This document shows positions 7,089 to 40,702 of a stretch of DNA of 40,702 bases, piece by piece. The stretch spans positions 1-40,702 of the forward strand of contig CALYRM010000008.1 in assembly GCA_945482995.1 (NCBI GenBank), read 5' to 3'. The notes below the pieces were generated by a model, which worked only from the letters and a program-made list of their open reading frames with translations, searched no databases and was not told the origin of the DNA. This stretch comes from an uncultured Clostridia bacterium. Its GTDB lineage: Bacteria; Bacillota; Clostridia; Christensenellales; CAG-1252. How positions within the stretch are numbered: the stretch's first letter is position 1; every line of letters starts with the position of its first letter. The position numbers and the translations under genes were made by a program.

Positions 7089-7205
7089 TATGCCTTTTTT
7101 AAATTGCCAGCGGCATCCCGAACATAGTAGAGGGTAAAAATTTAACTTATCATCCTGCATAAGCCAATGTGCAATTATTAAATGTCATTTTCAAGCGTAT
7201 AAATC

Positions 7206-7247
7206 GTCATTCTGAGCGCAGTGCAACGAAGTCGAAGAATCTAATCC
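7206..7247 (+). repeat. GTCAT-type hairpin repeat with GTGCAACGAAG insert
   Basis: The copy reads GTCATTCTGAGCGCAGTGCA, then ACGAAGTCGAAGAATCTAATCC. The inner stem ATTCT/AGAAT pairs perfectly. The extra GTGCAACGAAG in the loop defines a long variant also found at 453, 10963, 28265 and 30236. A CAATGTGCAATTA motif (7164-7176) lies in the same gap. The rest of 7089-7359 shows nothing else. Confidence 0.8.
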
Positions 7248-7359
7248 GCTTTCGGGAAATCTCTATTAATGCACAAACTCTACCTTATGATGAGATAATC
7301 ATACTAGCACTACTAAAAATCTAACAAAACAATATAACAAAGCAACAAGAGAAACAAAA

Positions 7360-31239: not shown

Positions 31240-31672
31240 GTCATCTTCAAGCGTTGTTCGAGGAATCTAATCCACTTTGTCATTCCGAGCGTAGTCGAGG
31301 AATCTCATTCATTTTGTCATCCCGAGCGTAGTCGAGGGACCTCATCCGCTTTCGCCATCCTTGACCTGCCCGCGTCATTTCGACCGAAGTGAAGAAATCT
31401 CTATGCAAGCACCGACCTTTTGCGAAGCATAAGAGCAGCCATTCTAAATTATAACGTCATTCTTAAGCGTTGTTCGAGGGTGAATTGACAGCTCTGCTGT
31501 CATCCCGAGCATCGTCGAGGGACCTATCCGCTTTGTCATTCCGAGCCATACCAATCGTCATCCTCAAGCGTTGCGTAGCGTAGTCGTGAGGATCTAATCC
31601 ATATCGTCATTCCCAGAGTAGATCCCTCCACGTTGGTCGGGATGACGTACCAAGGTGGGAATGATGAATATG
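31240..31672. repeat. Largest GTCAT repeat cluster, with a nested inverted copy
   Basis: Plus-strand copies start at 31240, 31279 (ATTCC/GGAAT), 31316 (TCCC/GGGA), 31374 (ATTTC/GAAAT) with tail module, 31456, about 31498, 31536 (5' half) and 31557 (ATCCTCA/TGAGGAT). A GTGAATTG unit is at 31480-31487 with hairpin 31486-31502. At 31618-31646 a minus-strand copy lies inside an outer inverted pair, TCATTCCCA (31607-31615) and TGGGAATGA (31656-31664). The cluster fills the gap 31213-31686. Confidence 0.85.
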
Positions 31673-37341: not shown

Positions 37342-40113
37342 ATGAAAAAGATATTAATTGCGATTTTATTATTGGTTCCGGTTATCATAATTCTTACATT
37401 GAATGTTTCAAGCACCATTGTCAGCGCACAAATTGAAATTGGCGTTGAAAGACTCGTTTTGAAGCATTTAGGCGAAACGGTAGATTATGTAGTAATAAAT
37501 TTAGAGGAATATACCGAAACAAACAAGCAATACCTATTATTCCCCGACTTCACGCCAACATACGCAAGCAATAAAAAAATTGATTGGAGCGTATCCGACG
37601 AAAGTATGGCGACAATCCGCAAAAGCGGTGATGGCGTTGCCGTATCCTTTATTAAAGGACAATATGGCACCGTTGACGTTATAGCCACGGCAAAGAGCAA
37701 TACAAGTATTAGTGCGGTGTGTACCTTTGTTATCACAGGCAAGGTTATTGGTAGAATTGACTTTTACGATTATAACACTCTTAGCGAGGTAAAGAATTTA
37801 AATCTCAAGCTCTATGAAAGCACGTGTATTGAAGCAAGACCAATACCGTTTGCGGCATTAGGTAGTAAAAAGATAAAATGGCAGTCGTCCAACGAAAGCG
37901 TTGCTACCGTCAATCAAAATGGTGTAATAAACGCAGTAGGCGAGGGTGTTGCAAGCATTACTGCAAGTATCACCGAACAAACCGAGGTTGTAAGCAATAC
38001 CTTGACGGTTAGCGTTGCAGGAAAAGCTTTGTCAAATAAACCAACAATTTACAGCGTTTCAAGAGAAGTGGATATGACCGAATATCTATCAAGTAGCGAC
38101 GTAGAAATTCTATCAGTGGAAAACGGCGCTGCTGCCGGAAACAAGATTACAGTTGACGATAACAAACAAGTTGCCACCGTTACGTTGATGAGAAACGACG
38201 ATTTACAAACGGTAAATATCTATATTTGTGAGGAAAATGCACTTGTAATCGACGATCTCGACGAATACAAGAAAACAGTATGGGCAAATAAAAACTTTGT
38301 TCCTTTACGCACCGAGTATTTCCCGATATCTGCAAGCTGTCCTTTCCAAGAGACTGGCGAAATCACTTGGACGTCGGATAATCCGTCGGTAGCTACTGTC
38401 ATAAACGGAAGAATAGCAGCCTTAAAAGAAGGTACTGCTGTACTGACGGCAACGGCTGAGGGCTTTATACCTGTTTCAATAGAGGTTGATATCACCCCTA
38501 AGATAGTTGACGTACGTTTAGAACTTGACTCATTGGGAGACATTGCAGGCTTAAACGAAGAAAGAGTATTCGGTATAAATACCTGTACCTTTAACGGCAC
38601 AAACTTTAACGTAACAAATTCTTTGCAAATGCGTATAAGTTATGTTTATCCCGACGAAGTAATGGATAGCGAAAACATTTATGACTATTTCTATTTTGAA
38701 AGTAGCGACGAAAACTTGGCTACCATTGGCGATGACGGAACAGTATTCTTCAATCGTGAAGCAATAGGTAAAAAAGTGAAAATAACGGTAACGGCTCGTT
38801 TTTCTGAAAACAACGCGCACGATAGTTATGTATTCAACATTATTGACGGTATAAATATCGGTTACGATATGCCATTTATTCACTATGATAAGAATGTAAG
38901 TGAAGAATTGCCAAGCTATTATTCTACAAAAGAGTATGAGTATTTAATGAACGCCTATACCGCCGATTTTGATATTGACGGAACAATGGGCGCAGTTGTA
39001 TTTCAAAATAACGTTTACTTGCCACGTCCCGAGGACTACGATTTTTATGTCAAAATCAATCGTCCGATTTACGGCAACGGCTACGTAATTGACGGACAAC
39101 TTCACAGCAATTCTCACGATACAAGAATTTTTGATACCGGACTTGATTATGATAGAATAGTCAAGTACTTTGGCAATGACTACGAAATGAAAGTTGAAAA
39201 TCTTTTCATTCAATCCTATTCGCCGATATCGGACGACTCCGAAGAAGCGTTTAAGGATTTGAAGGTAAAAGGCGGCATCCCCTATAGATCTACATCTTGT
39301 TGGAATCCCGATATTCACGTAGGACTAACCTTCAAATATTGTATGTTTAGATATGCGTACTGTCATTTGAACATTGCAGGCGGTCCTGTAACCTTGGACG
39401 GTTGTATTATGAGCAATTCGGCAGGTCCGGCTATTACCCAACAATCCAATAGGGATGCTGCAAGTACGCTTATCATTAGAAATTGTATATTCTCAAATAC
39501 CATTTCTCCGGTATACATAGCGACTACCGGTAATTTAGGCTATGAAGATGATAACTTATACGATAAATATATCGACTTAAGGCTAGAGGGTGTAAACTAC
39601 GTATATAACTGGAAGCTAGTCGATGAAGTTTCACTTGACATATTCCCGAAGACCAACAATGATATTATCGATAATCAATTAATACCCGCGCTAAACGATC
39701 AAATCGCGACCTTCTTCAATATGATTTTGGATGATCCTGATAATGAGGCTTTGTTATACCACGGCGTAAACGACTATGTAAACTTTGGTTTTATGTTCTT
39801 AGGTGTTTGGAGAAAACCAAAATTAGAGGTCAATCCCGATATTCCTATAGAAGAGTATGGTATTAATGGCTCAACCGTAACCTTTGACGAGAATGATTAT
39901 TCCTGTTCAATGATTGACATGTCGAAATTGCAAGATTGGATAGACAACAATTTGATATTTAATCCTGTATGTAAATCGCTTGGAATCAACTTCGTAACCA
40001 ATGAATCCTATATTATAACTCCAATTGGGAAGAATGGCGTGTATAACACTAAACCGGGCGACACCTATCAACTGGACGAAGAAACCAAAAACAGATTGCA
40101 CGGTATTAACTAA
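37342..40113 (+). CDS. Large exported protein with bacterial Ig-like (BIG2) domains and beta-helix region
   Basis: This 923-residue protein has a Sec signal (MKKILIAILLLVPVIIILTL, ending SAQ near residue 33), with no lipobox and no C-terminal sortase motif. At least three BIG2-like units are seen: KKIDWSVSDESMATI (about 74), KKIKWQSSNESVATVNQNGV (176) and GEITWTSDNPSVATVINGRI (340); FYFESSDENLATIGDDGTV (453) is a fourth. From about 560 on, segments such as VENLFIQSY, LTFKYCMFRYA, VTLDGCIMSNS and LIIRNCIFSNT suggest a right-handed beta-helix. It is encoded 6 nt after the ABC permease gene. A surface or secreted adhesin-like role is possible; no enzyme motif is recognised. Confidence 0.8.
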   Translation: MKKILIAILLLVPVIIILTLNVSSTIVSAQIEIGVERLVLKHLGETVDYVVINLEEYTETNKQYLLFPDFTPTYASNKKIDWSVSDESMATIRKSGDGVAVSFIKGQYGTVDVIATAKSNTSISAVCTFVITGKVIGRIDFYDYNTLSEVKNLNLKLYESTCIEARPIPFAALGSKKIKWQSSNESVATVNQNGVINAVGEGVASITASITEQTEVVSNTLTVSVAGKALSNKPTIYSVSREVDMTEYLSSSDVEILSVENGAAAGNKITVDDNKQVATVTLMRNDDLQTVNIYICEENALVIDDLDEYKKTVWANKNFVPLRTEYFPISASCPFQETGEITWTSDNPSVATVINGRIAALKEGTAVLTATAEGFIPVSIEVDITPKIVDVRLELDSLGDIAGLNEERVFGINTCTFNGTNFNVTNSLQMRISYVYPDEVMDSENIYDYFYFESSDENLATIGDDGTVFFNREAIGKKVKITVTARFSENNAHDSYVFNIIDGINIGYDMPFIHYDKNVSEELPSYYSTKEYEYLMNAYTADFDIDGTMGAVVFQNNVYLPRPEDYDFYVKINRPIYGNGYVIDGQLHSNSHDTRIFDTGLDYDRIVKYFGNDYEMKVENLFIQSYSPISDDSEEAFKDLKVKGGIPYRSTSCWNPDIHVGLTFKYCMFRYAYCHLNIAGGPVTLDGCIMSNSAGPAITQQSNRDAASTLIIRNCIFSNTISPVYIATTGNLGYEDDNLYDKYIDLRLEGVNYVYNWKLVDEVSLDIFPKTNNDIIDNQLIPALNDQIATFFNMILDDPDNEALLYHGVNDYVNFGFMFLGVWRKPKLEVNPDIPIEEYGINGSTVTFDENDYSCSMIDMSKLQDWIDNNLIFNPVCKSLGINFVTNESYIITPIGKNGVYNTKPGDTYQLDEETKNRLHGIN

Positions 40114-40537: not shown

Positions 40538-40578
40538 AGCACACTATACTTCGCAGTCGCGAAGCGTAGTGTGCTTTT
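40538..40578 (+). terminator. Terminator of the 33760-40516 operon
   Basis: GCACACTATACTTCGC pairs with GCGAAGCGTAGTGTGC (one mismatch, one wobble) around loop AGTC and is followed by TTTTCTT. Confidence 0.9.
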
Positions 40579-40604
40579 CTTATCCACAAAAATTAAAGAT
40601 TAAA

Positions 40605-40702
40605 GTTATATTTTTAGCCTTGTGGCTAAAAGTGATATGCAAGTATCTTGCGTTATATTTTGACTTAAAGTCAAAGTTATATTATATTTGCCTTAACTTC
40701 TC
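40605..40702. repeat. Array of different mini-palindromes with GTKATAT spacers, cut by window end
   Basis: GTTATAT (40605), GTGATAT (40632), GTTATAT (40652) and GTTATAT (40676) separate three different perfect mini-palindromes: TTTTAGCC-ttgt-GGCTAAAA (40612-40631), GCAAG-tat-CTTGC (40639-40651) and TTTGACT-taa-AGTCAAA (40659-40675). Palindrome and spacer abut with no extra base. The fourth unit (TATATTTGCC...) runs off the window. No gene is visible in it. The spacer is constant while the palindromes share no sequence. Confidence 0.75.

Follow-up and report, generated by a model that had tools for sequence, protein, structure and literature searches.

Two-armed mini-hairpin arrays at transcription terminators of Clostridia: a probably mobile element family linked to a four-helix-bundle protein

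The window analysed here, a 40,702-nucleotide stretch of DNA from an uncultured Clostridia bacterium, ends in an array of perfect mini-hairpins separated by a constant heptamer, GTKATAT. This array very probably is one arm of a two-armed element that has relatives in many Clostridia genomes. With a probability of roughly 0.6, we read the family as mobile elements that target transcription terminators and are related to the intervening sequences (IVS) of 23S rRNA: a small four-helix-bundle (4HB) protein would guide insertion of the folded element, and the host would copy it. The window is the whole of contig C8, one contig of a 163-contig draft genome, so the array is interrupted by an assembly break. 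Its parts are as follows.

40538..40579 (+): outer terminator-like hairpin of the element, AGCACACTATACTTCGC / GCGAAGCGTAGTGTGCT followed by TTTTC; common to contigs C107, C12 and C108 of the same genome and to genomes G028, G560 and G536
40580..40604 (+): TTATCCACA, conserved, then a variable AT-rich linker; from the homologue alignment
40605..40611 (+): separator 1, GTTATAT; from the sequence
40612..40631 (+): mini-hairpin 1, 8-bp stem, 4-nt loop; from the sequence, with a homologous hairpin in C107 and four other genomic copies
40632..40638 (+): separator 2, GTGATAT; from the sequence
40639..40651 (+): mini-hairpin 2, 5-bp stem, 3-nt loop; from the sequence and the homologue alignment
40652..40658 (+): separator 3, GTTATAT; from the sequence
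40659..40675 (+): mini-hairpin 3, 7-bp stem, 3-nt loop; from the sequence and the homologue alignment
40676..40682 (+): separator 4, GTTATAT, the last in the left arm; from the sequence
40683..40697 (+): element centre, TATATTTGCCTTAAC; the same or a similar centre, then an inverted arm, in the homologous copies of C107, G028 and G560
40698..40702 (+): TTCTC, putative first bases of the first hairpin of the inverted right arm, placed by alignment with the C107, G028 and G560 copies

The first-pass annotation of this DNA had located the separators exactly (40605, 40632, 40652 and 40676) and had correctly described three perfect hairpins between them (8-, 5- and 7-bp stems; 4-, 3- and 3-nt loops) in a non-coding array. 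It was also right to set CRISPR aside: the constant element is only 7 bp, the inserts are palindromic, and the long identical repeats of a CRISPR are absent. Two of its claims hold in part. It took the end of the contig to cut through a fourth unit; the element does continue, but the sequence from 40683 onward is the centre, followed in related copies by the inverted arm (CCTTAAC also opens the inverted arm in contig C26). It further placed the array behind the terminator of the preceding operon; a tie to terminators stands, but this hairpin belongs to the element itself, being common to C107, C12, C108 and two other families. The window thus shows the left arm, with its four separators, and the centre; the right arm lies past the contig end, and the part of the copy inside the window contains no visible protein gene. 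The copy is located after a Nudix-like gene and not within a 23S rRNA gene. No orthologues of the window's flanks were found in the genus. Elsewhere in the window, an ABC-transporter operon is followed by a gene (37342-40113, +) for a 923-aa protein with a hydrophobic amino terminus and repeated SSNESVATVNQNG-like segments.

Complete copies reveal a common plan: two arms, (hairpin-GTKATAT)x4, a short centre, and an inverted (ATATMAC-hairpin)x4, spanning about 150-215 bp between the outermost separators. The plan is clearest in genome G074 (an assembly of about ten contigs), whose copies read (hairpin-GTKATAT)n, hairpin, GTTGNGG or a variant, short centre, CCNCAAC or a variant, then (hairpin-ATATMAC)n. 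By strict matching, nine of 19 complete elements have 4:4 separators, and seven more have 4:3 or 3:4. Elements often carry their own terminator-like end hairpin. The C107 copy, 92% similar to that of the window, shows the right-arm continuation, as do the homologues in G028 and G560. The window arm, including its outer hairpin and TTATCCACA, has conserved counterparts in G028 of family f10 and in two genomes of family f24, G560 and G536.

Arrays were sought with the pattern GTKATAT-N8..30-GTKATAT-N8..30-GTKATAT, and the reversed pattern served as control. The window's genome yields 8 overlapping matches (control, 0), and up to 120, in the same order, occur in one genome (control there, 0); the control gave no match in any array-rich genome and few in the whole panel. 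Copies are present in many Clostridia genomes, patchily within a genus. In the window's genome, contigs C12, C108, C90 and C107 also carry the same repeat, at their ends or close to them. Several contigs of this genome stop inside copies, which makes the repeat one source of assembly breaks. Viral contigs were also scanned with the loose array pattern and no palindrome filter; the matches listed appear to be AT-rich noise and were set aside unused.

Could the pattern be chance in AT-rich sequence? The part visible in the window is short, and loose matches that lack palindromes do occur in a few genomes (G006 and G055, for example). However, perfect end-to-end stems of at least 4 bp are formed by 99 of 137 distinct inserts, where shuffled inserts give a mean of 0.66 and a maximum of 3, and the reversed-pattern controls are near zero. 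Chance is exceedingly improbable. The annotation's description of a constant separator with variable palindromes was right, and the genome and its relatives, where it had advised looking for the pattern, hold many further arrays.

The hairpins are conserved as structures. In a neighbour analysis of the inserts, single differences lie in the loop in 23 cases and in the stem in 2, and double stem differences are compensatory in 13 cases and uncompensated in none, although this test is weak because most inserts already are palindromes. In the window-arm alignment, standard pairs fill 96.4% of the pair cells and four pairs change on both sides: two in mini-hairpin 3 and two in the helix of the outer hairpin, which also varies from U-A to U-G in two pairs. 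The stem of mini-hairpin 2 is invariant among six homologues; its loop varies in sequence and length. The covariation score for the arm is 0.123, a value reached by none of 500 shuffles (0.071 for shuffles), and structures slid along the alignment drop to a paired fraction of 33-49%. A further candidate structure, zipping of the two arms through their complementary separators, was rejected: it is paired in 41 of 70 predicted folds, but the variable base lacks in-register covariation (35 of 64, with 33.6 expected).

These comparisons also bear on how the arrays arise. The annotation had favoured growth by capture or synthesis of snap-back DNA. Such in-place growth, by slippage, snap-back synthesis or hairpin capture, has one clear case of arm expansion on its side, in genome G775 (C5:43629-43804), where a two-hairpin GTGATAT/GTTATAT module is repeated in tandem about three times. 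As a general origin it is nonetheless very improbable, given the near-fixed 4:4 plan and the position-by-position homology of hairpins between copies and between families.

The partner gene that had been supposed to lie beyond the window's edge exists, but it adjoins other copies and was not seen at the window copy. In contig C26 of the same genome, the array is adjoined by a gene for a 117-aa protein of the PF05635/TIGR02436 type (PF05635, 102.4 bits against a cut-off of 33.8; TIGR02436, 113.2 bits against a cut-off of 24). In G074, the 4HB gene lies between the two arms. Array-linked 4HB proteins match the solved structures 2RLD and 2GSC; those of other separator types, described below, also score above the profile cut-off. 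Among 101 genomes, a TIGR02436 gene is present in 16 of the 18 with palindromic GTKATAT arrays and in 13 of the 83 others (p=4.7e-9), six genomes with non-palindromic pattern matches having been excluded after the matches were read. In the two exceptions, G047 and G056, arrays are present and a TIGR02436 gene was not detected; they fit movement in trans or loss of the gene, yet weaken a strict dependence on it. PADLOC models of anti-phage defence gave no match for three 4HB proteins.

Enzymes of known mobile elements show no such link. Reverse transcriptases and HUH transposases had been suggested as neighbours together with 4HB proteins, and only the last associate with arrays. Across the 101 genomes, neither RVT_1 (p=0.12) nor Y1_Tnp (p=0.60) is associated with arrays; RVT_1 was undetected in G002, G003, G028, G047 and G074, and Y1_Tnp in the array-rich G002, G003, G028 and G074. 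The element itself encodes no DNA-cutting or DNA-copying enzyme. These results weigh on two alternatives. A Y1 HUH transposase could move the arrays as palindromes of the REP/RAYT or IS200 kind, since REP sequences likewise are hairpins with constant short flanking motifs. REP/BIME sequences with their RAYT, and MITEs, also resemble the arrays in being multicopy, non-coding, extragenic palindromes in inverted pairs, and the MITE-like combination of a terminal inverted structure (the two arms) with many related copies (about 20 in G074) is present here. The arrays differ, however, in having several palindromes per element, a constant separator that depends on the 4HB clade and no link to a Y1 transposase, and this alternative is highly improbable. 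Alternatively, the family could be a retroelement moved in trans by a reverse transcriptase, with the 4HB protein in an Avd-like role. Terminators are known insertion sites of group IIC introns. The Avd protein of diversity-generating retroelements resembles PF05635 (PMC10053308). Nevertheless, the arrays depart from diversity-generating retroelements in lacking an association with reverse transcriptase, which five array-bearing genomes appear not to encode, and a retroelement is improbable.

The same architecture recurs with other separators in other 4HB clades: TGATG, TGAAGT, ATGAAGC, GCTAAAT, GTTATGA, TGAATT, GTGAAAT, GCGATAT, ATGATATA and more. In a sample of 80 named Clostridia loci, mostly from ruminant and gut metagenome assemblies, the chains of hairpins cluster in the 400 bp before the 4HB gene (31 of 73, compared with 7 of 131 control stretches). 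The separator tracks the 4HB protein clade. Over 70 loci with 12 such dialects, the separator changes 14 times on the 4HB protein tree, against a mean of 44.7 and a minimum of 39 in 300 shuffles; the tree rests on 107 columns and has many weak forks. The correspondence holds also inside single genomes. That of the window contains a GTKATAT unit (C26), two GCGATAT units (C128 and C31) and a ATGATATA unit (C71) whose 4HB gene has an in-frame stop; G028 combines GTKATAT and GCGATAT with two other dialects. The array-linked members fall into clades of the EAxY type, separate from the classical AEG type: arrays accompany 66 of 92 EAxY-type proteins and 1 of 28 classical AEG-motif IVP proteins, the latter nearly all drawn from a wider phylum sample. 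From this pattern in the sequences, it is an evenly balanced proposition that the 4HB protein itself reads the separators.

Some loci depart from the plan. A few 4HB clades (TTCACT, TTCATTA) have tandem separators with no hairpins between them. Hairpin-less tandem separators of the TCTTACC, TTCACTA and TTCATTA types occur at loci L272, L276, L278 and L280 (upstream of the 4HB gene), L064 and L284, where they surround a second copy of one terminator arm. In a half-arm of genome G101 (L367:860-1110, compared with L082), two separators both read ATACAAC in place of ATATAAC, which may mark an emerging dialect.

Copies sit at transcription terminators. An intrinsic terminator lies at most 90 bp from the outer edge of 14 of 20 arrays (18 loci, 16 from G074 and two from the window's genome) and of 49 of 923 random places, a contrast somewhat inflated by the coding DNA included in the control. 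Moreover, some copies lie inside a terminator, with one arm of its stem on each side. This split-terminator arrangement was found around 9 of 19 two-armed copies and, at the same score threshold, 3 of 224 control placements; a stricter test gave 6 of 19 and 0 of 224. The same test detected no split terminator in the other 10 copies. The C26 element, together with its gene, is for example bracketed by terminator arms AAAAAATCGAACG / CGTTCGATTTTTT; the C107 element by GCTCACAC / GTGTGAGC; and an element on contig C1 of G560 by a 17-bp terminator stem with one mismatch. Other copies occur at terminators of protein-coding or tRNA genes, and many 4HB-bearing elements of other dialects are placed after a tRNA gene and its terminator. 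The terminators that precede TGATG-dialect elements at L054, L056, L256, L257, L258, L260 and L262 have differing stems but the same apical TTTGTCTACC(T)GACAAA, which may be part of the end of the TGATG-dialect element.

The family probably is mobile. G074 holds about 20 copies, 75-96% identical, at unrelated sites. Its 4HB element at C5:24095-24724 is absent from the congener G101, where the flank alignments lie 23 bp apart (677 in G074); a flank identity of 71-80% is too low to place the edges to the base. The L080 site is occupied in G101 by unrelated intergenic sequence, with no array. At a third site (L082 element 1), first considered as a clean empty site, G101 keeps the right half-arm only, which makes it a partial polymorphism. 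A 263-bp segment of G101 (C117:421-682) was also put aside: it is array-free and appears to be coding sequence missing in G074. These presence/absence differences between congeners support mobility. In the G074/G101 comparisons, whose flanks are 71-88% identical, no base-exact empty site was found, and target-site duplication was not established, the flanks being too diverged to fix the ends. At greater distance, the likeness of the window arm in three families, together with 4HB proteins that are 87% identical between families f1 and f10 (L050, L053), may reflect horizontal transfer.

One arm of such an element has probably been described before. Rfam RF01706, Gut-1, was presented as a likely non-coding RNA that had been seen in human gut sequence only (Weinberg et al. 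2010; PMC2864571). Its consensus is hairpin-GUGAAAU-hairpin-GUGAAAU-hairpin, the architecture of an element arm, and its model matches one arm of ten related elements at or above the Rfam gathering score. GTKATAT elements are among these; the left arm of the window gave no match up to E=5. At L068, the matched arm lies directly upstream of a GTGAAAT-dialect 4HB gene. Gut-1 therefore is best read as one arm of the hairpin-array family, in its GTGAAAT dialect, and the annotation's phrase "string of RNA hairpins" is fair for a single arm. As published, Gut-1 is a free-standing RNA, whereas the elements add an inverted second arm, a 4HB gene, other dialects and probable mobility.

The Gut-1 matches also bring in the main rival to the mobile-element reading, a cellular system of non-coding RNA or 3'-UTRs. 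Here the arms would be small RNAs and the 4HB protein their RNA-binding partner, with a host job in regulation or RNA stability, and duplication and horizontal transfer would account for the spread. The stems covary, the U-A to U-G changes in the outer hairpin are of a kind tolerated by RNA, and the arrays come after genes and terminators, all as this rival would have it. Against it, expression of Gut-1 is only inferred; the high copy number, unrelated sites, congener site differences and patchiness within a genus resemble insertion; and elements inside split terminators look inserted rather than like a fixed regulator. We consider a cellular RNA system unlikely.

Under the preferred, mobile-element reading, the family is related to the IVS of 23S rRNA. 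That of Coxiella is a selfish element lodged in an rRNA helix; its ends are complementary, and its S23 gene is preceded by GACAGAT heptamer repeats (PMC4990558). The array elements share the complementary ends, the PF05635-type gene that is either carried or lost, and insertion into a host RNA hairpin: an S23/IVP gene is carried by some copies, and host stem arms flank 9 of the 19 two-armed copies on both sides, as at an IVS. They differ in being multicopy, in occupying terminators, and in having mini-hairpin arms with a protein-specific separator. A literature search turned up no account of arrays like these next to PF05635/TIGR02436 genes, subscription papers and preprints being outside its reach.

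The proposed mechanism is as follows. The 4HB protein would recognize, in single-stranded DNA or in RNA, the separators and hairpin arms that belong to its dialect and would steer insertion of the folded element into a further hairpin, with terminators as the favoured targets. Copies without a gene would be mobilized in trans, and the host would be spared by the terminator hairpin that the element brings with it. For copying, our best guess is that the host's replication or repair works on single-stranded DNA folded into hairpins, given that neither RVT_1 reverse transcriptases nor Y1 transposases were detected in array-rich genomes; any specific chemistry put forward for this step is unlikely to be the right one. 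A bolder generalization, speculative and rather doubtful, is that the family represents a kind of mobile element not recognized before: a very small 4HB protein, not known to be an enzyme, would read the code word specific to its clade and direct hairpin-folded nucleic acid into terminator hairpins by host enzymes alone, 23S IVS and Gut-1 being special cases.

The element family ties together the orphan Rfam family Gut-1, the S23/IVP 4HB proteins of unknown function and the puzzle of how 23S IVS spread. The relation of one protein to one separator offers a direct binding test of 4HB function, and nesting in terminators, combined with a terminator-like hairpin of its own, would let a selfish element insert harmlessly.

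Other repeats and RNAs were noted in these genomes. A different dispersed repeat family has more than 100 matches in the window's genome, including L014:8420-8743 and, in the window, 7180-7252 (-) and 31278-31605 (-); sequence of the same type (CAAGCGTTGTGAAACGCAGTCGAAG) occurs at L013:540-660. A lysine riboswitch (RF00168) lies at L014:13096-13267 (-).
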